Origin: an uncultured Bacteroidota bacterium
GTDB taxonomy: Bacteria; Bacteroidota; Bacteroidia; Chitinophagales; Chitinophagaceae
Length of the DNA: 64,000 bases
NCBI GenBank assembly: GCA_903853805.1
Contig: CAINUN010000100.1
Coordinates: forward strand, 18,650-82,649
Reading direction: 5' to 3'
The position numbers and the translations under genes were made by a program. The notes below the pieces were generated by a model. The model was not told the DNA's origin. It ran no database searches and was given only the letters and a program-made list of their open reading frames with translations. Position 1 is the first letter of the stretch, and each line of letters starts with the position of its first letter. This document shows positions 5,483 through 18,357 of this stretch, piece after piece.

Positions 5483-7036
5483 TCACCCTTGATATTCTCC
5501 CCAAATAGCGCGAAGCGTGTCAGAAATTTCGCCTAGTGTGCAAAGATTTTCAACAGCATCTATCACAAACGGCATCAGGTTTTCGGCGGTGCTTGCTTTT
5601 TCTTTAATGAGGCGGAGACAAGCAGTGGCTTTTTCGTTGTTGCGCTTCGCGCGAAGGGCTTTCAGCTTTTCGCTTTGCACCACCCGAATTGAATCATCAA
5701 TCCTAAACACCGGCGTGGCTTCTGCCTCTTTGGAAGTGAATTTATTGACGCCTACAATGGTTTTACTCTTGTCTTCAATGGCTTTATTGTAAGCATAAGC
5801 CGAGCGGGCAATTTCCTCTTGAATAAACCCTTGTTCGATGGCTTTTACGGCACCGCCCATGGCATCTATTTTATCCATAAGCTTCCAAGCTGCGTCTTCC
5901 ACTTCGTTGGTCAATTCTTCTACAAAGAAAGAACCTGCAAGTGGGTCTGGCGTATCGGTTGCGCCACTTTCGAATGCGATGATTTGCTGAGTGCGCAAGG
6001 CAATGGTTGCTGCTTCTTCAGTAGGCAAAGAAAGCGCTTCGTCGTAGCCATTGGTATGCAAAGATTGGGTGCCACCAAGTACGGCGCCAAGCGCTTGCAA
6101 AGTGACCCGCACAATATTGTTTCTTGGTTGTTGAGCTGTAAGGGTGCTGCCTCCTGTTTGAGTGTGAAAGCGCAACATTTGAGCTTTAGGGTCGGTGGCA
6201 CCTAGCGATTGGGTGATGTGCGCCCACATTCTACGCGCAGCGCGGAACTTGGCAACTTCTTCAAACAAATGATTGTGGGCATTGAAGAAGAAAGAAAGCC
6301 TTTGAGCAAACACATTGATATCCAATCCTTTTTCAAGAGCTGCTTCGAGATAAGCTTTGCCATTGGCAAGCGTAAACGCTAATTCTTGCACCGCAGTTGA
6401 CCCCGCTTCGCGGATATGATAGCCCGAAATGGAAATGGTATTCCACTTAGGCACTTCCTTGCTGCAATATTCAAAGATGTCGGTAATGAGCCGCATAGAT
6501 GGCGCTGGTGGATAAATGTAAGTACCACGAGCAGCATATTCTTTTAAGATATCATTTTGAATAGTACCTGAGATTTTGCGGATGTTAGCACCTTGTTTTT
6601 TAGCAAGAGCAATATAGAAAGCCAATAGAATAAATCCTGTGGCGTTGATGGTCATAGAAGTAGAAATATCTTCAAGTTTGATACCTGCAAAAAGAATTTC
6701 CATGTCCTCGATTGAATCAATAGCAACGCCTACTTTACCCACTTCTCCTTCAGACATAGCATGGTCGGAATCATAACCAATTTGCGTAGGTAAATCGAAA
6801 GCTACGGACAAGCCCATAACCCCTTGACTGAGCAAATAATGATAGCGTTTGTTGCTTTCTTCTGCTGTGCTAAACCCTGCATATTGGCGCATGGTCCACA
6901 TTCTGTCGCGGTACATGCTCGCATGAACACCACGCGTAAAAGGAAAGTTTCCAGGAAGTTCTTTCATAGAAACCGGTTCACAATACACCGGCTTGATTTC
7001 AATACCCGAATCGGTAATAATTTTTTTCTCAGTCAT
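5483..7036 (-). CDS. Methylmalonyl-CoA mutase family, large (catalytic) subunit without B12 domain
   Basis: A 517-residue TIM-barrel subunit that isomerises methylmalonyl-CoA and succinyl-CoA (or a related acyl-CoA) using adenosylcobalamin. Motifs include [14 protein letters not shown] (about 50), [27 protein letters not shown]-like [22 protein letters not shown] and [15 protein letters not shown]. Aligning from memory with P. shermanii MCM, the substrate-defining Tyr89 (RQYAG) and Arg207 ([10 protein letters not shown]) positions are both conserved, which favours methylmalonyl-CoA over isobutyryl-CoA. The C-terminal B12-binding domain is absent, so a separate small subunit must be encoded elsewhere. 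It follows the anchored protein by 19 bp. Confidence 0.9.
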
Positions 7037-7055
7037 TGTAAAAGGTAATTAATAA

Positions 7056-7610
7056 TTAAGCTTGTGATCCGTAAGACAATACCAATCTTGCTTCTTCATT
7101 AATAAGATTCAAAGCCACATCGCTTGGCAATTGGCCATCAACCGTTAAAAGGTAATCAGTTATTTTTTTATGCAGTTCTTTACCAGAGGCTTGCGGGTCT
7201 AATTGCTGGCAAATCATGTGAATCATATTCATTTCTTGTTCTTTAGCACCGCGCACTGAGCTCCAAACCTGTTTGGTAACATACACTTGTTGGCTTACGT
7301 TATGCTCGAACTCCATTTTAATAGTCATGATGAGCATAGCTTGTAAATGCGCCACTGTCATACCACTTTCATAAACCCTTGGAATAAGGTTTCTGGGATG
7401 TATTCTTTCAATATACAAAGTCAACCTTTCATATGCTTGCAAACGCAGCCTAACCGTAGTGTCTTGGTTGTCTTTAAGCAAAGCCAAATGCTTTTCTTTG
7501 AAATCGTTTAATAAAAACTTTTTAACAATAGAAGAACAAGCAATCAACACAATGATGGCTGGCAAAGTGTATTTAAGAATTTCGAGGAAAGCGCTGAGTG
7601 TATTATTCAT
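7056..7610 (-). CDS. Membrane-anchored conserved protein of unknown function (DUF7935-like)
   Basis: A 184-residue protein with one N-terminal membrane helix (about residues 10-28, LKYTLPAIIVLIACSSIV) and a helical cytoplasmic or periplasmic remainder with YERLTLYIERIHPRNLIPRVY. It resembles a conserved Bacteroidota family that I recall as DUF7935; the number is uncertain. It sits between ricT (40 bp upstream) and the methylmalonyl-CoA mutase gene (19 bp downstream), so it belongs to the same transcription unit. No catalytic motif is visible and no function is proposed. Confidence 0.7.
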   Translation of the reverse strand: MNNTLSAFLEILKYTLPAIIVLIACSSIVKKFLLNDFKEKHLALLKDNQDTTVRLRLQAYERLTLYIERIHPRNLIPRVYESGMTVAHLQAMLIMTIKMEFEHNVSQQVYVTKQVWSSVRGAKEQEMNMIHMICQQLDPQASGKELHKKITDYLLTVDGQLPSDVALNLINEEARLVLSYGSQA

Positions 7611-7650
7611 AAGGAAGAAAAAGTTTGTAATAATCTAATCAAAATCAGAA

Positions 7651-9000
7651 TTACTTACCTTGTTTAGGTCGCTTTTGATTTCTGTTATTATTGTTGGTAT
7701 TCTGTTTAGGTAGTTGTTGAGAATTACTTGATGGATTATTTGTTTGACTACTTGTTTGGTTATTGTTTCTTTGTTGGTTTTGATTGTTATTAGGCTGAAC
7801 CTGCTTTTGAGGCTGTGTCTGTTTAGATTGAGGTTGCTGGTTGATAGGTTTATTATTGCCTGAAGATTTGACTTTCTTCTTGCCAGTTTTTTCTAAAGAA
7901 CGTAAAGTGATTTGCCCAACATCATTTATAAAACCCATTTCCACTTTCACGCCAGCTTTTGGCATTTTCGCTTCCAACTCAACTGGTTGTAACTCAGAAG
8001 GCTTTTCCCCTGCTTTATTGAGTCTCTTAATTTCTTTTACACGTTCTATGGTAAGTGGGTATTGTTTACTACTATCTCTATAACAATACCAAAGCAGATT
8101 TTTGAAAATGTCTTTTTTCTGAAGATAGGCTACACCTAGTGTTGTTTCAAGAATATCACAGTCTTCTGGAAATACTTTTAAGGCATCTACGTAAGTATCT
8201 AATTCAAAGTTGAGGCAGCATTTCAATCTGCCGCATTGACCTGAAAGTTTAGTTTGATTAATTGAAAGATTTTGGTAACGCGCAGCGGTGGTATTTACGG
8301 TTCTGAAATCAGAAAGCCAAGTACTGCAACACAATTCTCTTCCACAAGAACCAATGCCGCCAACTTTTCCGCTTTCTTGACGAGCACCAATCTGCTTCAT
8401 CTCTACCTTCACTTTAAATTCAGTAGCATACACTTTAATCAACTCACGAAAATCAACCCGGTTATCAGCAGTATAAAAGAAAGTCGCTTTTTTGCCATCT
8501 GCCTGCATCTCCACTTCACAAATTTTCATTTCTAGTTTCAATTGCTTTGCAATAGCACGGCTTCTAATCATTATTTCTTGTTCACGATTTTTATGATGAT
8601 TGAACAAGCGTAAGTCTTCTTCAGTGGCATAGCGATAAACTTTTTTTAGTTGAGATTCATCTTTAATGCCATACTTTTTCATTTGCAATTTTACAAGCTC
8701 GCCTGTGAGGCTTACCATTCCGATATCAAATCCGCTGATGCCTTCAACAGCAATCATTTCTCCTTTTTCAAAAACAATATTTGAGAGGTTTTTAAAATAA
8801 TCTTTACGGCTTCCTTTGTTGAAAGAAACCTCGATGAAATTTGCAGGTTTTGCACTGTCGTGTAGGGTTAATGAGTTGAGCCAATCAAAAACATTCAGTC
8901 TGTTACAACCAGACGAACTACACCCACCATTATTACTACATCCGTTAGGACTACATCCCATGTTATCTTTTTTTGTTGTGGCAGGGTTATGATTTCTCAA
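7651..9000 (-). CDS. ricT: PSP1/RicT-family regulatory protein with Cys-rich head and Q/N-rich tail
   Basis: A 449-residue protein. Residues about 60-260 form the PSP1/RicT domain, with the diagnostic cysteine-rich core GIGSCGRELCCSTWL and SGQCGRLKCCLNFE; in Bacillus, RicT acts with RicA and RicF as an Fe-S-carrying complex affecting RNA processing. Before it is a short Cys/Gly/Asn head (CSPNGCSNNGGCSSSGC), and after it a 90-residue low-complexity tail built of N, Q, S, P and K. The head and tail vary among homologues. In many Bacteroidota this gene precedes gldH; here a different lipoprotein gene lies upstream. The function in this phylum is not established. Confidence 0.88.
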   Translation of the reverse strand: MRNHNPATTKKDNMGCSPNGCSNNGGCSSSGCNRLNVFDWLNSLTLHDSAKPANFIEVSFNKGSRKDYFKNLSNIVFEKGEMIAVEGISGFDIGMVSLTGELVKLQMKKYGIKDESQLKKVYRYATEEDLRLFNHHKNREQEIMIRSRAIAKQLKLEMKICEVEMQADGKKATFFYTADNRVDFRELIKVYATEFKVKVEMKQIGARQESGKVGGIGSCGRELCCSTWLSDFRTVNTTAARYQNLSINQTKLSGQCGRLKCCLNFELDTYVDALKVFPEDCDILETTLGVAYLQKKDIFKNLLWYCYRDSSKQYPLTIERVKEIKRLNKAGEKPSELQPVELEAKMPKAGVKVEMGFINDVGQITLRSLEKTGKKKVKSSGNNKPINQQPQSKQTQPQKQVQPNNNQNQQRNNNQTSSQTNNPSSNSQQLPKQNTNNNNRNQKRPKQGK

Positions 9001-9090
9001 AAAGAGATAATCTTTTGCCGGTTAAAAAAATAATTCTTAAGCCATTGGCTTACAATACAAACTCAGGAAGAAAATGCTTGAAAGAAAATC

Positions 9091-9603
9091 TTAGTTTCTA
9101 ATTTCAATGTCGTAATGGCCTTTAGTAAACACAGTTTTGGTTTTGCCTGTATCTACTAATACATAGTACAAACGATAACAACCAGGCTCTAACAAGCGTG
9201 CGCGAACGTTGTAAATATTAGCTCGTTGAGAATCAACTGATGGATTCCATGGAATTACCCAACTTTGGTATTGTTCCTGTGATTCTTTTGTTGGCATGTA
9301 CATGTAAAAATCAGCTGGGCGATAAAGCCTAAAAACAAGGTAAGGGTCATAAAACACTTCCCTATTGCGAAGCAGCCTTCCTTTTATGTACATCTGCTTT
9401 ACTACAGAGTCCACTTGGATTCCAGGGACAATCTGATAGTTATTCAGAAACTGAGCATATTCGGCATTTGTAAAACTTTCAAATTTGCCTTCATCAGTTG
9501 TATCAGAGCAGGTTGGCTCACGAAAACCTATGTTTGTATTAGCTTGCTTATCGCAACTGAAAAGGATGAAAGAAAGTATAACAACACTGAGAATTTTCTT
9601 CAT
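9091..9603 (-). CDS. Small lipoprotein with C-terminal CYRLYY/GHYDI motif
   Basis: About 170 residues from the internal ATG at 9603, chosen because AGGAAAAATTTTATG and a lipoprotein signal peptide (MKKILSVVILSFILFSCDK) start there; the ORF-track start 11 codons upstream would bury the signal. Cys16 would be lipidated. The mature part looks beta-rich. Its C-terminus (PGCYRLYYVLVD then KGHYDIEIRN) closely resembles the C-terminus of the lipoprotein at 48035, so the two may be paralogues. It is not recognisably GldH although it occupies the place upstream of ricT where gldH is often found. Function unknown. Confidence 0.7.
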   Translation of the reverse strand: MKKILSVVILSFILFSCDKQANTNIGFREPTCSDTTDEGKFESFTNAEYAQFLNNYQIVPGIQVDSVVKQMYIKGRLLRNREVFYDPYLVFRLYRPADFYMYMPTKESQEQYQSWVIPWNPSVDSQRANIYNVRARLLEPGCYRLYYVLVDTGKTKTVFTKGHYDIEIRN

Positions 9604-9706
9604 AAAATTTTTCCTGAGTAAAAAATATGGGTTCAAGGTAAAAAAAGATTTGCTTTCATGAAAATCTTCTCGGAAAATTTTATGATTGCTGCTTATTATC
9701 TTGTGC

Positions 9707-10351
9707 TTAATAGTAAGAGTATTGTTGTTTTTTGCTTTTGTGTAAAGTAGTCTTCTTGTTTACATTGTGAGGCAATAAAGCCTCTCTTTTTTTGAAGGCA
9801 ACACTATCGTTAATAAAGTTTGGAAAGTTTCTTTTGTAAATCAATTCATCCTCTGCGTATTCTTCAATTTTCATGAGCTTTCCATTTTCAGAGTCATAAT
9901 ATCGCCATTCTCCTTGGCGAAATGAACCATAATAAGCAGGGATTTCTTTATAACTTTCCAATAATGTTTCAGGGTGTGTAATAACAATCGTATCTTTTTC
10001 CTGAGAAGAATTTTTACTCATGTAGGTTCCTTCACAATATAGTTTTCCTTCATCATAATATTTTGCTTCCCCATCTAATAGGTCATTTTTAAAATTTTCA
10101 ATAGAAATCAACTCTCCTTCTCTGGTTATTTTATACCAAGTACCATATTTAAGACCATGTTCATAGTTTCCGAATTCAGTAAATGGTTTTTCGCTTTTTT
10201 TTGCAGGGAAGGTACTTACCCACATTCCATGTTTTTTGCCGTTTTCATCAAGCTTATTCATGTTGTCTCCTTTAGGTTTTTCTATTTGTGAAAAAACAGA
10301 GAGGCTAAATAGGCAACAAAATACTGATAGAAATAAAAAAGGTTTCAACAT
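9707..10351 (-). CDS. Secreted MORN-repeat-like (YwqK-type) protein
   Basis: About 214 residues from the ATG at 10351 (signal peptide MLKPFLFLSVFCCLFSLSVFSQ); the longer track ORF would overlap the Fe-S carrier gene. The mature protein has degenerate MORN-like units of the type GxxxGxWxxY: KKHGMWVSTF, GLKYGTWYKI, LDGEAKYYDEG, RQGEWRYYDSENG. Such repeats form beta-hairpin ladders; database names such as YwqK antitoxin are automatic and not evidence of toxin-antitoxin function. The gene begins 5 bp after the iscA-like gene. Role unknown. Confidence 0.7.
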   Translation of the reverse strand: MLKPFLFLSVFCCLFSLSVFSQIEKPKGDNMNKLDENGKKHGMWVSTFPAKKSEKPFTEFGNYEHGLKYGTWYKITREGELISIENFKNDLLDGEAKYYDEGKLYCEGTYMSKNSSQEKDTIVITHPETLLESYKEIPAYYGSFRQGEWRYYDSENGKLMKIEEYAEDELIYKRNFPNFINDSVAFKKREALLPHNVNKKTTLHKSKKQQYSYY

Positions 10352-10356
10352 GGAGT

Positions 10357-10701
10357 TTATACCGAAAATGATTGTCCACAACCGCAAGTGCTGCTTGCAT
10401 TCGGATTTTGAAAAACAAAACCACGAGCGTTCAGTCCATCTTCAAAATTCACCTGCATGCCAAAAAGGTAAATGCTGTGTGCTTTTTTCATCAATACTTG
10501 AATGCCATCAATGTCATACACTTCGTCATCCGATTCTTTTTTATCGAAGCCTAGCATATAACTCATGCCTGAACAGCCACCACCTTTAACTCCAATTCTT
10601 AAGAGGGTTTCTTTATCAAAATCAGTAGCGTTCATTAAACGTTTTACTTCATTCACTGCGTTTGCAGTAAGGCTAATAGGGCTTTCCAAAATTGTTTCCA
10701 T
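10357..10701 (-). CDS. A-type Fe-S cluster carrier (HesB/IscA/ErpA family)
   Basis: A 114-residue protein with all three conserved cysteines of A-type carriers: KGGGCSGMSY near residue 40 and the C-terminal STCGCGQSF. It receives and delivers [2Fe-2S] or [4Fe-4S] clusters to apo-proteins in the cytoplasm. Length and motif spacing are standard. Whether it corresponds to IscA, SufA or ErpA cannot be decided from sequence alone, and no other suf or isc gene is adjacent. It is divergent from frr and leads the MORN-like gene by 5 bp. Confidence 0.9.
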   Translation of the reverse strand: METILESPISLTANAVNEVKRLMNATDFDKETLLRIGVKGGGCSGMSYMLGFDKKESDDEVYDIDGIQVLMKKAHSIYLFGMQVNFEDGLNARGFVFQNPNASSTCGCGQSFSV

Positions 10702-10822
10702 AAAATATTTTCTAAATGAATAATTGTCACAAAAGTACTGTAGATTGAAGGCTTACCAAAAGTGTTTCTCGATTACTAAATAACTATAACAATTGTTGTC
10801 TTCTATCTTTCGGAACATTCTT

Positions 10823-10830
10823 TACATTTG
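10823..10830 (+). promoter_or_regulatory. Probable -7 box for frr
   Basis: TACATTTG matches the Bacteroidota -7 consensus TAnnTTTG, about 20 bp before the frr start. A TTG lies upstream with about 24 bp spacing, slightly longer than usual, so the -33 element is uncertain. Confidence 0.5.
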
Positions 10831-10849
10831 CGCTCTCAAAACGTAATTT

Positions 10850-11413
10850 ATGAGCGAGGTTTTAGAAAAAATAATTGACAACGCTGGCGATCATATGAAG
10901 AAGGCAATCAGTCACCTTGAAACTGAACTTTCAAAAATCAGGGCTGGTAAAGCTAATCCTGTTATTCTTGACGGTATTCATGTGGATTATTATGGTGCAC
11001 CTACAGCCTTAAGCCAAGTTGCAAATGTCACTGTTGCAGATGCACGCACACTTTCCATTCAGCCTTGGGAGAAAAATATGCTTCACGCTATCGAAAAAGC
11101 AATTATCGCTTCAAATATTGGCTTGAATCCTCAAAATGACGGTAATATTATTCGTCTATTCTTGCCTCCTCTTACCGAAGAGCGTCGTAAAGAGCTTTGT
11201 AAGAAAGTTAATCAAGAAGGAGAGTTCGCAAAAGTTGCTGTTCGCAATATTCGTAGAGACGCTATAGAAAATATCAAGAAAGAACAGAAAGATGGGCTAA
11301 GCGAAGACGAAGCAAAAAGAGGTGAAACAAGAGTTCAAGGTGTAACAGACAAATACATAGTTCTTGTTGACCAACATTGCAAAGACAAGGATAAAGAGAT
11401 TATGACCATTTAA
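10850..11413 (+). CDS. frr: Ribosome recycling factor
   Basis: With EF-G, splits post-termination ribosomes into subunits. The 187-residue product matches family length; characteristic segments are SKIRAGKANP (about 28), VDYYGAPTALSQVANV, IQPWEKNMLHAIEKAI and the C-terminal three-helix bundle with NIRRDAIENIKK. It has its own -7 box and a strong terminator immediately downstream, so it is probably monocistronic. Confidence 0.97.
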   Translation: MSEVLEKIIDNAGDHMKKAISHLETELSKIRAGKANPVILDGIHVDYYGAPTALSQVANVTVADARTLSIQPWEKNMLHAIEKAIIASNIGLNPQNDGNIIRLFLPPLTEERRKELCKKVNQEGEFAKVAVRNIRRDAIENIKKEQKDGLSEDEAKRGETRVQGVTDKYIVLVDQHCKDKDKEIMTI

Positions 11414-11437
11414 TAGTAGGGTTTCATGAAGATAATA

Positions 11438-11475
11438 ACAAGCAGACTGATGAAGATTCAGTCTGCTTGTTTTTT
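11438..11475 (+). terminator. Rho-independent terminator of frr
   Basis: A perfect 13-bp stem (acaagcagactga / tcagtctgcttgt) with a 7-nt loop is followed directly by a run of T. It lies 25 bp after the frr stop. Confidence 0.93.
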
Positions 11476-11491
11476 ATCTCCCCAAAAAAAA

Positions 11492-11522
11492 TTTGCTTGA
11501 AAACAATTATGCCTTACTTTTG
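11492..11522 (+). promoter_or_regulatory. Bacteroidota-type promoter of rpsT
   Basis: TTTG (11492-11495), a 19-bp spacer and TACTTTTG (11515-11522) match the -33/-7 consensus of Bacteroidota primary sigma factor promoters. It sits between the frr terminator and rpsT, about 30 bp from the start codon. Confidence 0.75.
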
Positions 11523-11551
11523 CCATCCTTTTAAAAAATACAAGAGTATAA

Positions 11552-11964: not shown

Positions 11965-13617
11965 ATGTTCCCAAGACTAATTTCATTTCTCTTATTGTTT
12001 CCTTCTTGTTTTGCTTTTGCACAAACAAAAATTCTATTTGATGCTACCAAAGCTGAAACTGCTGGACAGGCAGATTGGATTATTGACGCTGACCAATGGA
12101 ATTTAAACTGGAACCCTAATGCTTATACAAACGCAAGTAATTGGCATAGTAATGCTCAAAAAATTCCAATTCCTGCTCAAAGTGGCATAATGGCAACTAC
12201 CAATGAAAATTTTTGGGTTGGTGGCATTTCTGCTTGGGCGGTAGATTGTGCCAAAAAAGGTTATACCGTTGAAACGCTTCCTTGGAATGGGCAAATTACT
12301 TATGGCAATGCCAGCAATCTTCAAGACTTGAGCAATTACAAAGTCTATATTGTTTGCGAACCGAACATAATGTTTTCAGCTGCTGAAAAAACAGCCATCA
12401 TGCAGTTTGTTCAAAATGGGGGAGGGCTATTTATGGTTTCCGACCACACCGTAAGTGATAGAAACGGCGATGGCGATGATTCTCCTGCTATTTGGAATAA
12501 CTTGATGACTAATAATTCAGTGCAAAACAATCCTTTTGGCATCACCTTCGATTTGCAAAATTTCTCAGGGACTTATTCAAACTTAGCCTCTTCGCTTTCT
12601 GCCTCCGATTCTATCCTTCATGGTACTATGGGAAACGTTACCAAAGTGCAGTGGGCTAATGGTACTTCTATGACTTTATCTACTACCAATAATCCTACTG
12701 TAAAAGCAGTGGTTTATAAAACAGGTACAAGTGGAAATACCAATGTGCTCTTTGCTTATGCACGTTATGGCAATGGAAAAGTATGTGCTATTGGCGATAG
12801 TTCACCATGTGATGATGGAACTGGCAATCCGAGTAGCAATCTTACGCTTTACAATGGTTATTTTACCGATGCAGCAGGCAATCATCAAAGACTGTTGATG
12901 AATGCTACTATTTGGTTGGCTACAGCAAATCCTACTTCTGTTACGGCAACGATTACCGCAACAGGAAATACTTCTTTTTGCCAGGGAGGAACAGTATTGT
13001 TAAATGCAAATACAGGAACAGGATATACTTATCAGTGGCGACTCAATGGTACTGTTATTCCCGGTGCTACTAATTCATCTTACACTGTTTCTCAAGCAGG
13101 AAATTACACTGTTACTATTAATAGCACTGCTAACTCTAATGTAATTGCTGTTGTTGTTTTTTCAACACCAACACCAACAGTTGTCAATACTTCCAACACT
13201 TTAAGTGCAAGTGGCGGACCTTATGCTGCTTACGCTTGGTATTTGAATGGAACTGCTATAGCAGGGGCAACAAATGCCACTTATCTTGCTACTCAAAATG
13301 GCACCTACAAAGTAAATGTGACGACCACAGATGGTTGCACGGGTTTTTCGCCCAATTTAAATGTGACTTTGGTGGGTATTGATGATGTGAACGGAAATAA
13401 GATTGCTATTCATCCTAATCCTACAAAAAATCTGATTCAAATTGATGGCTTAGTGCCTGCAACCATAATGGTTTTTTCTTTAGAAGGAAAATTGGTTGCC
13501 GAGGTTCATCAAAAAAACATGGTTTCGCTTGTTGATTTGCCCAATGGCATTTATCAGTTATCCATTTTTGATGCTAATAACAATTTGCTTTTGAACGAAA
13601 AGATTGTGAAAGAATAA
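11965..13617 (+). CDS. Secreted T9SS cargo protein with class-I glutamine-amidotransferase-like domain
   Basis: A 550-residue exported protein: signal peptide (to about CFAFAQ, residue 20); a ThuA/GATase1-like flavodoxin fold (about 25-320) with YKVYIVCEPN, NGGGLFMVSDHT and YGNGKVCAIGDSSPCDDG; two Ig-like modules (about 330-470) with QWRLNGTVIPGATNSSYTV and AWYLNGTAIAGATNATY; and a type A Por sorting domain at the end (IHPNPTKNLIQIDG, NGIYQLSIFD). The sorting domain directs export by the type IX system and surface anchoring. A hydrolase or amidotransferase activity is not shown by motifs. It is flanked by its own promoter and terminator. Confidence 0.85.
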   Translation: MFPRLISFLLLFPSCFAFAQTKILFDATKAETAGQADWIIDADQWNLNWNPNAYTNASNWHSNAQKIPIPAQSGIMATTNENFWVGGISAWAVDCAKKGYTVETLPWNGQITYGNASNLQDLSNYKVYIVCEPNIMFSAAEKTAIMQFVQNGGGLFMVSDHTVSDRNGDGDDSPAIWNNLMTNNSVQNNPFGITFDLQNFSGTYSNLASSLSASDSILHGTMGNVTKVQWANGTSMTLSTTNNPTVKAVVYKTGTSGNTNVLFAYARYGNGKVCAIGDSSPCDDGTGNPSSNLTLYNGYFTDAAGNHQRLLMNATIWLATANPTSVTATITATGNTSFCQGGTVLLNANTGTGYTYQWRLNGTVIPGATNSSYTVSQAGNYTVTINSTANSNVIAVVVFSTPTPTVVNTSNTLSASGGPYAAYAWYLNGTAIAGATNATYLATQNGTYKVNVTTTDGCTGFSPNLNVTLVGIDDVNGNKIAIHPNPTKNLIQIDGLVPATIMVFSLEGKLVAEVHQKNMVSLVDLPNGIYQLSIFDANNNLLLNEKIVKE

Positions 13618-15244: not shown

Positions 15245-16594
15245 TTATTTTTTTTGCACAACAACCTTTTGAGTTGTTTTAAAATCGCCATTATAAATCT
15301 TGGCGAAGTAAATGCCTTCATGCAATGTTTGTGTATCGAAATAAGCAAGACTACTGCCTTTTGCAAGTGTGGTTTGTGCAACTGTTTTTCCTGTAAGGTC
15401 AATGAGGTCAATGGTCAAATCGTATTGAACAAGGTTGCCCGCTTGAATCAAAATCATATCGCTCGTAGGATTGGGATAAACAGTAAATGATAATTGATTG
15501 AAAGCAGTTTCGTTGATGCCTGTTGGTGTATAAATCGTAGTGGATTCGGTAACTGAAGTTACTTTTCGGTTAGCCCAATTGCCATAAAAAGTTTTGCCAA
15601 CAGCATAAGGATAAGCAGAATTCCAATTGGCATCTACTGTGCAGAAATAGGCATAAGTGCCCGCAGGATATTCGGGCGTTACACAAAAACGTCCGTTATG
15701 AACATCTAAATAATCGCTTTGACCTGTATGAGCAATGAACTCATAATCTTCAATGAAATAACCCAAAGGATAAGTGGTGTTTACGGCAGGACCTGCTGTA
15801 ACGGTATTGCCCGAAGCATCTGTTGTTCTTGCAGTAATGTTTCTCAATTGATAGCTCGATTTGATGCGCACAATGCCACCTGTTCCATCAGCGTTTTTAA
15901 AACCATAAGCACCATAAATAGGATAGCCATCATACGCGAAACCAATAAGCGGCGAATGTTGGTTGCTATCAATCACATAAAGTCCGTTAGCATCATAAGG
16001 ATTACAAACAGTAGAAGTCACATTGATGTCGAATTTAAATGCAGAAGGGTTTTGATGATGATGATAATTGCCGTTTGCAGGATGACCTTTTGAACAATCG
16101 AAACCAGCTTTCTCTGCACGAATAGCATCGCGATTCCAAACCAAATCACCTTGTCCACCAATAGGTCCACCAGCTAAAGCACTTGTAGCGTTTTTCCAAG
16201 ACACACCATCACGGCTATCAAACAAAGCAACGCCGTTTATGAACACACCTATGTTGCCCATTGTTGTGGCTTTAAGCGTTCCCGTATTAGGTGTTGGATT
16301 CAATGGAAAACTGAAAATAGCATTTTGGTTTTGTGCAATAGAAGGATTGCCATCAAGAAAAGGTCCTGTAGGATAAGAAGGAATTCCTTTGGTAGTGACG
16401 TAAACAAAGTTGGTAGAATACTCTACTTTTTGGCAATTGACGAGTGTGTTATTGCTCACAGGCGTTGGGTTGCCATTGACGTAATAAGTGCCAAGCACTG
16501 TTGTGTTTTGCAGCCAAGAAGTGATAGCTGGACTTTGCGCTTGAACTGTTGATGAAAGCAGTAAGCAAGCAATGATTTTTTTTAGTGAGTGCAT
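15245..16594 (-). CDS. Secreted YHYH-domain protein with T9SS sorting domain
   Basis: A 449-residue exported protein: signal peptide (LLLSSTVQAQ), a YHYH domain (about 50-340) and a type A Por sorting domain (VYPNPTSDMILIQAGN, HEGIYFAKIYNG). The family motif appears as GNYHHHQN near residue 177, that is YHHH rather than YHYH, followed by IGFAYDGYPIYGAYG. Such His-rich domains occur in proteins of unknown function often found with copper or haem proteins. It is the last gene of an operon after MbnP and MbnH homologues (33 bp gap), which suggests a shared surface copper-related role. Confidence 0.83.
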   Translation of the reverse strand: MHSLKKIIACLLLSSTVQAQSPAITSWLQNTTVLGTYYVNGNPTPVSNNTLVNCQKVEYSTNFVYVTTKGIPSYPTGPFLDGNPSIAQNQNAIFSFPLNPTPNTGTLKATTMGNIGVFINGVALFDSRDGVSWKNATSALAGGPIGGQGDLVWNRDAIRAEKAGFDCSKGHPANGNYHHHQNPSAFKFDINVTSTVCNPYDANGLYVIDSNQHSPLIGFAYDGYPIYGAYGFKNADGTGGIVRIKSSYQLRNITARTTDASGNTVTAGPAVNTTYPLGYFIEDYEFIAHTGQSDYLDVHNGRFCVTPEYPAGTYAYFCTVDANWNSAYPYAVGKTFYGNWANRKVTSVTESTTIYTPTGINETAFNQLSFTVYPNPTSDMILIQAGNLVQYDLTIDLIDLTGKTVAQTTLAKGSSLAYFDTQTLHEGIYFAKIYNGDFKTTQKVVVQKK

Positions 16595-16627
16595 AAGTGG
16601 TGTTTTAAAATGGTTATAAATTAATGG

Positions 16628-17644
16628 TTAGAAAAATTCTTTAGGAAATTGATGATGAGTGTTGAAAACAAAACTAGAGTCGTTGAGCGTCATCAAAAAA
16701 GCTATAAGATCTGCCTTATCATCCGAGGATAAATGAATGCCGTTTTTTAGCTCTTTTGAAAGATTGGGATGAGGCTGAATGTTGTTGGTGTAATGATTTA
16801 AAACTTGTCCGAGTTTTTTAAACCTACCGTCGTGCATGTAAGGAAAAGTGTAACGCAAATTTCTCAAGGAAGGTACTTTGAATACTAAACTATCCACCGA
16901 AAGATGTGTAATTCTATTCTTGCCAAAATCATTTAAAGTAGTATCAACAGACAAACCATTACACTCAAATTGCTCATTGGTAAAAAGAGGCTCGGTATGA
17001 CAAGCATTGCAATTTTGAAGAAACAACTGATAACCCTTATTTTCTTGTTCTGAAAAACTGTTTTTTCCTTGCCTTACCTCATCATACTTTGAATGATTGC
17101 TCACCAACGTCAACTGAAATTGCGCCAATGCTTTTAATAAATTTTCACCAGTAATTGCACTGTCTTTAAATGCTTTGAAAAATAAAGATGGATATCGAGA
17201 ACTGCTTTGTAGTTTTTCAACTAAATGATTAATGTTTTCTCCCATTTCTTTTGGGTGACTGATGGGTGCCAATGCTTGCACATCCAAATGATTGATGGCA
17301 CCATCCCACATAAAATCATGTTGCCAAGCAAGGTTAAATAATGCAGGGGCATTGCGATTGCCTATGGAATCGAAAATTCCATGACTGAGTGAATGGTCGG
17401 TATGAGCAAATGCATTGTAGGGTGAATGACAAGAGGCGCAAGAAACTTTTCCATCAATAGAAAGTAAAGGATCGAAAAACAACACTCTTCCTAGCAAAAC
17501 CTTTTCCTTAGTCAATGGGTTTTTTTTGAAATCGTAAGAAGGCTTAGGGAAATAATTAGGCGCATGAAATAGCGATTGAACTTCATTGTTAAATGCAGTC
17601 AACAAGACAAAAGCAAAAAGCAATATCAACAAATGCTTCATCAT
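16628..17644 (-). CDS. Di-haem cytochrome c peroxidase/MauG family protein (MbnH-like)
   Basis: A 338-residue exported protein with two c-type haem sites, CASCHSPYNAFAH (about 80) and CNACHTEPLF (about 215), and other family segments (KVLLGRVLFFDPLLS, FMWDGAINHLDVQALAPISHPKEMG, VPSLRNLRYTFPYMHDGRF). Its ATG overlaps the stop of the MbnP-like gene (ATGA). In other bacteria MbnH is a MauG-type enzyme that oxidises a Trp of MbnP to kynurenine, making a copper site. By analogy this protein may modify its neighbour; classical H2O2-detoxifying CcpA activity is the alternative. Confidence 0.85.
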   Translation of the reverse strand: MMKHLLILLFAFVLLTAFNNEVQSLFHAPNYFPKPSYDFKKNPLTKEKVLLGRVLFFDPLLSIDGKVSCASCHSPYNAFAHTDHSLSHGIFDSIGNRNAPALFNLAWQHDFMWDGAINHLDVQALAPISHPKEMGENINHLVEKLQSSSRYPSLFFKAFKDSAITGENLLKALAQFQLTLVSNHSKYDEVRQGKNSFSEQENKGYQLFLQNCNACHTEPLFTNEQFECNGLSVDTTLNDFGKNRITHLSVDSLVFKVPSLRNLRYTFPYMHDGRFKKLGQVLNHYTNNIQPHPNLSKELKNGIHLSSDDKADLIAFLMTLNDSSFVFNTHHQFPKEFF

Positions 17645-18357
17645 GGTGCAATAGAAAAACAGGTTTTGAAAATAGATGAAAGGTGAACCGCTTGTTTACT
17701 TGGCGACATTACTTCAGGATGTTCAACCAAACTTGATTGTTCCAATAGTTCTTTTAAATCGACAACAACTACAATGTCCTTTTTAGTAGTGCATCGCAAT
17801 TTGATTTCTTGAATCGTAGTATTCGGATATTTATAGCCGCCAATATGCCATTGAAAAGCATGATTACGTGTTTTGCAGATGGGACTTGTTCCCTCTATTT
17901 TAAAATTGATATAGCCACTTTGCCAAGTCCAATACATGCCTTTTGTTGGGTCTAAGTCACCTCCAAATGCACCCGAAACATTGGTTGCACTATCAATGCC
18001 TATACTAAACCCAACTTCATCAAATTCATTTTTCACAGAAACATGAAAAGACATTTTTTCATCCCAATCCATCAAATGGAAACTGTTGGTTTCTTCAAAA
18101 ACTTTCTTTCCGCTCTTGTAAAAATAAATTTTGCTTACATAAAATTTTAAGGTGCTAATACTGATGTTTTCGTGTGCATTTTCAGCATATTGTGAACTGT
18201 CTTTAATTATACGTTCATTTTCTAAATAAGGTAAAAATGAAATTGTTTTTACCTGAGCCCCTAATGAAACTGAAATAACTTGCAGTATCATTAACAAGGC
18301 GACGGAATTTGCTTTTTTACTAAAAGCATTAATGTGATGTGATAATAATGAATGCAA
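17641..18357 (-). CDS. MbnP-family copper-binding protein
   Basis: A 238-residue exported protein with an N-terminal hydrophobic segment (ALLMILQVISVSLGAQ). The diagnostic MbnP stretch is GDLDPTKGMYWTWQSGYINF (about 132-151), including the WTW in which one Trp is converted to kynurenine in characterised MbnP. Cysteines occur at PICKTRNH and LRCTTKK. It is the first gene of a three-gene operon with the MauG-like enzyme (4-bp overlap) and the YHYH protein. Family assignment is strong; Trp modification and copper binding here are inferred. Confidence 0.85.
   Translation of the reverse strand: MHSLLSHHINAFSKKANSVALLMILQVISVSLGAQVKTISFLPYLENERIIKDSSQYAENAHENISISTLKFYVSKIYFYKSGKKVFEETNSFHLMDWDEKMSFHVSVKNEFDEVGFSIGIDSATNVSGAFGGDLDPTKGMYWTWQSGYINFKIEGTSPICKTRNHAFQWHIGGYKYPNTTIQEIKLRCTTKKDIVVVVDLKELLEQSSLVEHPEVMSPSKQAVHLSSIFKTCFSIAP

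Follow-up and report, generated by a model that had tools for sequence, protein, structure and literature searches.

What a putatively secreted protein of the YHYH family contributes to a gene pair that is known from copper-related settings is the question raised by a three-gene locus found in a 64,000-nucleotide stretch of contig CAINUN010000100.1 (assembly GCA_903853805.1), which belongs to an uncultured member of the Chitinophagaceae (phylum Bacteroidota) and is referred to below as the window. The locus encodes an MbnP-like protein, an MbnH/MauG-like di-haem enzyme, and a YHYH protein with the C-terminal sorting signal of the type 9 secretion system (T9SS). We consider it likely that these genes represent a conserved, regulated operon of Bacteroidota for extracytoplasmic copper handling, in which the di-haem enzyme completes a kynurenine site in the MbnP-like protein and the YHYH protein acts at the cell surface.

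Gene order and conservation of the three-gene linkage

Inspection of the open reading frames placed all three genes on the minus strand, running from position 18357 to 15245 in the transcription order MbnP-like, MbnH/MauG-like, and YHYH, at the coordinates given in the initial annotation, and Pfam confirmed the identities (Table 1). The 4-bp ATGA overlap that had been described between the first two genes is present and likely couples their translation; the third gene follows the second after a gap of 33 nt. Scans of the window for sigma-70 promoters and terminators returned no more matches than scans of shuffled sequences.

With the YHYH protein as the query, 80 loci, nearly all from Bacteroidota, were retrieved from a set containing a single genome for each species. 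When loci of related genomes are added and the window's own locus is counted in, 85 loci contain a trio, defined as MbnP, MbnH, and YHYH genes in this order on the same strand. These loci are distributed over several classes of Bacteroidota and usually retain the 4-bp MbnP/MbnH overlap, −4 being the most frequent spacing. The order YHYH, MbnP, and MbnH was found in a further group of loci. A less biased count was obtained from 200 related genomes by starting from full-length matches to PF14240. Of 57 such matches, 54 were of the T9SS type, and among these, both MbnP and MbnH are encoded within 4 kb in 35 cases and MbnH alone in three more, whereas well under one linkage of the former kind is expected by chance. 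Co-occurrence in other genomes, which had been set beforehand as the test of the initial annotation, is thus borne out by both samples. On the MbnP tree, the trio label requires 3 changes, as compared with 31.9 when the labels are shuffled; since trio MbnPs cluster in this manner, the association appears to be old. No description of the trio was found in a literature search that covered few subscription papers.

In subsets of lineages, additional genes recur within the operon or after its last gene, encoding a sulfatase (L083, L090, and L144), an arylsulfotransferase (L131, L166, and L193), and a CotH-kinase-type protein (L156, L166, and L176).

MbnP-like protein and its di-haem partner

The MbnP-like protein of the window scored 131.4 bits against PF20243 (gathering cut-off, 27) and 31.9 bits against TIGR04052, the equivalog model of a four-Cys motif protein (cut-off, 140); the four-Cys motif is lacking, and the conserved MbnP columns contain no Cys. 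The di-haem enzyme scored 177 bits against CCP_MauG (PF03150), 201.4 bits against TIGR04039 (cut-off, 362.85), and 202 bits against the MauG model TIGR03791 (cut-off, 443.85). Because both proteins fall below their NCBIfam equivalog cut-offs, the pair is regarded as MbnPH-like and not as equivalog members.

In a subset of 50 trio sequences, the MbnPs share only 25–44% identity with the window protein, which served as the reference. The WTW motif that had been noted in the window protein was located at Trp143-Thr144-Trp145, and Trp143, for which substitution in a proper alignment would have been damaging to the original proposal, is unsubstituted in all 85 aligned trio MbnPs. Met141 and His171 are candidate copper ligands (Table 1). 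When MbnP was searched against the PDB, neither the single sequence nor a profile returned a relevant match, and a broader MbnP profile reached the MbnP structure of Methylosinus trichosporium (7l6g) only at an E-value of 0.68. The corresponding profile alignment, which is weak by itself, places Met141, Trp143, and Trp145 on GMAWNW and His171 on HVG of 7l6g. An AlphaFold model of the protein (pLDDT 90) matched all six chains of 7l6g in Foldseek (best E-value, 2.2e-8; probability, 1.00; TM-score, 0.62 by query length), with no significant match besides this protein. As the sequence searches reached 7l6g poorly, the assignment to the MbnP fold rests on the structural match. In M. trichosporium MbnP, the first Trp of the WxW motif is reportedly converted to kynurenine, with Cu(I) bound near His, Met, and the kynurenine; judging from the alignment, Trp143 would be the expected kynurenine site here. 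A second MbnP-MbnH pair is encoded on another contig of the same genome (C16; L002/L224). Its MbnP is a lipoprotein with W-P-S-S at the WxW position (NMEWPSSMGGGYHFMKMEGYW), so that only the first Trp is retained.

The di-haem enzyme matched the M. trichosporium enzyme structure 6e1c with an E-value of 3.6e-33. Cys and His residues of both haem motifs are invariant in the trio alignment. Tyr285 occupies the place of the Tyr in the 6e1c motif DIYSEGG, and in the classical bacterial peroxidases 3o5c and 1iqc, the Met ligand is aligned with it. This position is a Tyr in MbnH and MauG and a Met in bacterial cytochrome c peroxidases; its occupation by Tyr in all 85 trio enzymes agrees with the MauG/MbnH type originally assigned. 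Trp107, Pro127, and Glu133 are likewise present in 85 of 85 sequences, and Gln123 in 84. We take Trp107 to be the inter-haem Trp and Gln123, Pro127, and Glu133 to be distal residues, presumably corresponding to those of MauG in its own numbering. Because these residues, Tyr285, and the haem motifs are all kept, Trp oxidation by the MbnH-like enzyme is chemically plausible. In four other loci (L064–L067), an MbnH at or near the TIGR04039 cut-off adjoins the gene for a protein of ~480–500 aa (KLVDWHVNYSGTDGFGYSDAVGCP), a different MbnH partner, and no MbnP is encoded nearby.

YHYH protein, upstream regulators, and copper-type neighbours

The third protein belongs clearly to the YHYH family (PF14240, 196.4 bits; gathering cut-off, 25), with which it shares the GHP, YHxH, and DGxPxYG motifs, but the second His motif of the family (HGH...YHYH) is replaced by HNG...YAYF. 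The initial annotation had described it as His-rich; this applies mainly to the YHHH motif and to several further His positions that are conserved. His171, His178, His180, His213, and Asp222 are candidates for a metal site. The T9SS signal was substantiated by scores above the cut-offs of both PF18962 (Por_Secre_tail; 54.2 versus 27 bits) and TIGR04183 (46.9 versus 23 bits), and such a tail is present in 59 of 60 YHYH homologues. The genome also encodes SprA, the one T9SS component searched (TIGR04189, 2573 bits). The tail and SprA together suggest that the YHYH protein is exported to the cell surface. A confident AlphaFold model of the domain was obtained (pLDDT 88.5), and neither sequence and profile searches nor fold searches of the PDB identified a relative beyond the T9SS tail.

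YHYH proteins similar to that of the window are encoded by phages and giant viruses. YHYH domains of phage tails have been predicted to contain a Zn site formed by three His and one Asp and to possess hydrolase activity (PMC7824862). The family is known from these tails, whereas the protein considered here is a predicted T9SS cargo encoded within a copper-type operon. Trp153 of the YHYH protein is present in 84 of the 85 trio proteins (one alignment row represents a split gene) and missing from the short and C32-type YHYH proteins; its value as a mark of MbnH linkage was weakened by its presence in unlinked T9SS-type YHYH proteins. Several apparent tandem YHYH genes (L123 and L167) turned out to encode multicopper oxidases that had been matched through their T9SS tails. 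Extra YHYH genes, or long fused ones (546–1819 aa), adjoin the usual gene in L118, L150, L152, L174, L188, and L190. On a plasmid of Loktanella salsilacus (L231), two PEBP-family genes are flanked by two YHYH genes in a stretch containing no copper genes.

Upstream genes were counted in the 65 trios whose upstream sequence extends over 1.5 kb or more. In 37 of them, genes for an extracytoplasmic function (ECF) sigma factor and a membrane-anchored protein of 150–170 aa directly precede MbnP, nearly always with a gene for a small membrane protein in between. The anchored, sensor-like protein contains one invariant His, and a second His and a Cys are nearly invariant; one of these proteins passes the cut-off of the Pfam family Metal_resist. 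This arrangement is similar to CnrYXH of Cupriavidus metallidurans, in which CnrX releases the sigma factor CnrH upon binding metal (PMC7689651): an ECF sigma factor, a small membrane protein, and an anchored, helical periplasmic sensor with conserved His residues are encoded beside metal-handling genes. It differs in that the sensor is diverged and Metal_resist/Spy-like and in that the module is missing beside the window operon. Upstream of the sigma factor genes, no dyad that stood clear of shuffled sequence was found as a shared ECF promoter motif. The same type of module adjoins three types of YHYH genes; in L091 it directly precedes a YHYH gene where MbnP and MbnH genes are absent, and elsewhere in the genome of the window it precedes the gene for a different YHYH protein. 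The second metal-type operon of this genome, on contig C32 (L223, positions 6621–11538), comprises genes for an ECF sigma factor, a 99-aa protein, a Metal_resist sensor (no other protein of the genome matches PF13801), a 535-aa T9SS YHYH-like protein, a HupE/UreJ-like membrane protein, and an Lcl-domain T9SS protein. Similar modules were identified in L225–L229.

Copper-type genes recur in the vicinity of YHYH genes. The gene for a T9SS multicopper oxidase separates MbnH from YHYH in L145, L167, and L123, and in L188, L078, and L195 such a gene adjoins a YHYH gene, the background being about 0.6 such oxidase genes per related genome. Short YHYH lipoproteins are accompanied by SCO1, close by on the same strand, in all 20 distinct loci examined, 12 of which had been picked by YHYH type alone when their neighbours were unknown. 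A conserved operon in its own right is made up of the genes for the short YHYH protein, a MORN-repeat protein, and SCO1 (L214–L221 and L234–L253), in several cases preceded by a sigma-sensor module. Both arrangements are joined in Neolewinella agarilytica, where the operon consists of genes for the sigma factor, Y, X, a short YHYH protein, a MORN-type protein, SCO1, MbnP, a further YHYH protein, MbnH, and a T9SS-YHYH protein.

Table 1. Positions of the three genes and of selected motifs and residues in the window.
Feature	Position	Strand	Description
MbnP-like periplasmic protein	17641..18357	-	238 aa; TTG start; signal peptide ...SVSLGAQ; PF20243
Met141, candidate copper ligand	17935..17937	-	Invariant, 85/85
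Trp143-Thr144-Trp145 (WTW; WxW motif)	17923..17931	-	Both Trp invariant, 85/85
His171, candidate copper ligand	17845..17847	-	Invariant, 85/85
MbnP stop/MbnH start overlap	17641..17644	-	ATGA, 4 bp; from the sequence
MbnH/MauG-like di-haem enzyme	16628..17644	-	338 aa; PF03150; two CxxCH
Haem motif 1, CASCH	17426..17440	-	Cys69, Cys72, His73 invariant in trio alignment
Haem motif 2, CNACH	16997..17011	-	Cys212, Cys215, His216 invariant in trio alignment
Tyr285, axial haem-ligand position	16790..16792	-	Tyr in 85/85
T9SS-tailed YHYH protein	15245..16594	-	449 aa; PF14240 and PF18962
YHYH domain	15620..16315	-	PF14240; conserved H171, H178, H180, H213, D222
YHHH (YHYH-motif cluster)	16055..16066	-	Each residue in 83 or 84 of 85
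T9SS type A C-terminal sorting domain	15257..15481	-	PF18962 and TIGR04183

Proposed copper handling and the alternative explanations

In the proposed mechanism, the MbnP-like protein would be exported to the periplasm, where the MbnH-like enzyme would oxidise Trp143, the first Trp of the WxW motif, to kynurenine, and the kynurenine, Met141, and His171 would together complete a Cu(I) site. The YHYH protein would be carried across the outer membrane by the T9SS and function on the cell surface, where its role as a metal protein would most likely be to bind, oxidise, or store copper. In many relatives, the ECF sigma factor would be restrained by the small membrane protein, acting as an anti-sigma protein, and by the CnrX/Spy-like periplasmic sensor; because of this mode of control, the operon is probably metal-induced in the relatives that possess the module, with copper as the presumed signal. 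A regulator of the CnrX type, together with nearby SCO1 and oxidase genes, would suggest tolerance or storage rather than uptake, a distinction that we draw with low confidence.

The locus resembles the MbnP/MbnH system of M. trichosporium (7l6g and 6e1c; TIGR04052 and TIGR04039) in the MbnP fold, the WxW, Met, and His residues, the position of the Tyr ligand in the di-haem enzyme, and the overlap of the gene pair. It differs in that no methanobactin genes were seen in the neighbourhoods examined, in the missing four-Cys motif and scores below both equivalog cut-offs, in the third, T9SS-tailed gene, and in the ECF/CnrX-like regulators encoded upstream in relatives. Surface Cu(I) proteins combined with a di-haem peroxidase-like enzyme have been described as MopE/SACCP in Methylococcus capsulatus and as CorA/CorB in Methylomicrobium album, and in these systems, kynurenine lies at the copper site of the surface protein itself (PMC3912023, PMC3621798). 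In our case, by contrast, kynurenine would form in the periplasmic MbnP, and the protein at the surface would be an unrelated member of the YHYH family; Pfam and PDB sequence searches pointed to no match to MopE or CorA, although no direct comparison was run. The general idea therefore has precedent, MopE and CorA being surface kynurenine-copper proteins. The initial proposal that the module is new relative to the methanobactin loci holds for YHYH as a separate member and for the way it is regulated, but not for surface kynurenine-copper proteins with di-haem enzymes, which were already known (PMC3912023). Three elements appear to be new: a separate YHYH protein with a T9SS tail, its regulator, and the connection of the YHYH family with copper.

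Several findings weigh against copper handling as the common function. Of the 54 T9SS-type YHYH genes, 16 have no MbnP or MbnH gene in their vicinity (a few of these are located at the end of a contig), and MbnH-YHYH pairs without a detectable MbnP in the stretch occur at L165, L178, L179, and L183. In a PDB search, the envelope-stress protein Spy (E-value, 1.4e-4) was a better match to the sensor profile than a metal sensor, ZraP being matched only weakly, and no sigma/sensor module of the CnrYXH kind adjoins the window operon. YHYH genes of phages, giant viruses, and proteobacterial plasmids showed no copper genes in the stretches read. Such occurrences outside copper contexts, the published prediction for phage-tail YHYH domains (PMC7824862), the conservation of the core His and Asp residues in family members of the window type, and the presence of other secreted hydrolases, e.g. 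sulfatases, downstream in some operons would fit a secreted Zn hydrolase that merely shares the operon and a metal-stress regulator, with MbnP alone handling copper. We regard this as unlikely: SCO1 accompanies the short YHYH lipoproteins in every Bacteroidota locus examined, genes for multicopper oxidases are repeatedly found within the operons or next to them, one type of sigma/sensor module adjoins three YHYH types, and the YHYH model shows no fold match to known hydrolases. The operon contexts in Bacteroidota thus favour copper over the Zn-hydrolase prediction.

MauG-type enzymes act on more than one kind of protein substrate, and the YHYH protein could itself be a substrate of MbnH, with a conserved Trp (e.g. 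Trp153) being oxidised before export to create a second modified surface metal site. The MbnH-YHYH adjacency kept at the four loci without MbnP and the distribution of Trp153 among trio, short, and C32-type proteins are in line with this idea, but Trp153 is also present where MbnH is missing from the stretch examined (e.g. L079, L087, L109, and L110), and a T9SS cargo that is folded before export would need to encounter MbnH while still in the periplasm, which makes the proposal rather improbable. That the YHYH gene is a bystander beside an ordinary MbnP-MbnH copy, with no shared function, might be argued from the fact that most MbnP genes have no YHYH neighbour (MbnP is encoded in 161 of the 200 genomes and any YHYH in 71). 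Order and spacing are, however, kept across Bacteroidota classes despite the low MbnP identities, the linkage (35 of 54) far exceeds a chance level of well under 1%, and the sigma-sensor-YHYH arrangement of L091, which lacks the MbnPH pair, points to YHYH itself as a likely target of the regulator; an unrelated bystander is accordingly very improbable.

Beyond the operon, we tentatively suggest that Bacteroidota YHYH proteins may constitute an unrecognised class of extracytoplasmic copper proteins, belonging to a regulon that possibly includes SCO1, multicopper oxidase, MbnP/MbnH, and the ECF/CnrX-like sensor over several operon types, and that the MbnH-linked form would pair a periplasmic kynurenine copper site with a T9SS-exported surface copper protein. 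With the operon type described here, MbnP/MbnH pairs outside methanotrophs gain a partner, a cellular location, and a likely regulator. Copper handling is also the first functional hypothesis for Bacteroidota YHYH proteins, for which only the Zn-hydrolase role predicted from phage tails was previously available, and this hypothesis is open to direct test, as named Neolewinella strains carry the SCO1-extended operon.

Elsewhere in the window, a further protein with a T9SS tail is encoded on the plus strand at positions 11965–13617; it contains PKD/Ig-like repeats, and its N-terminal part gives a weak match of the GldG/DUF2194 kind.

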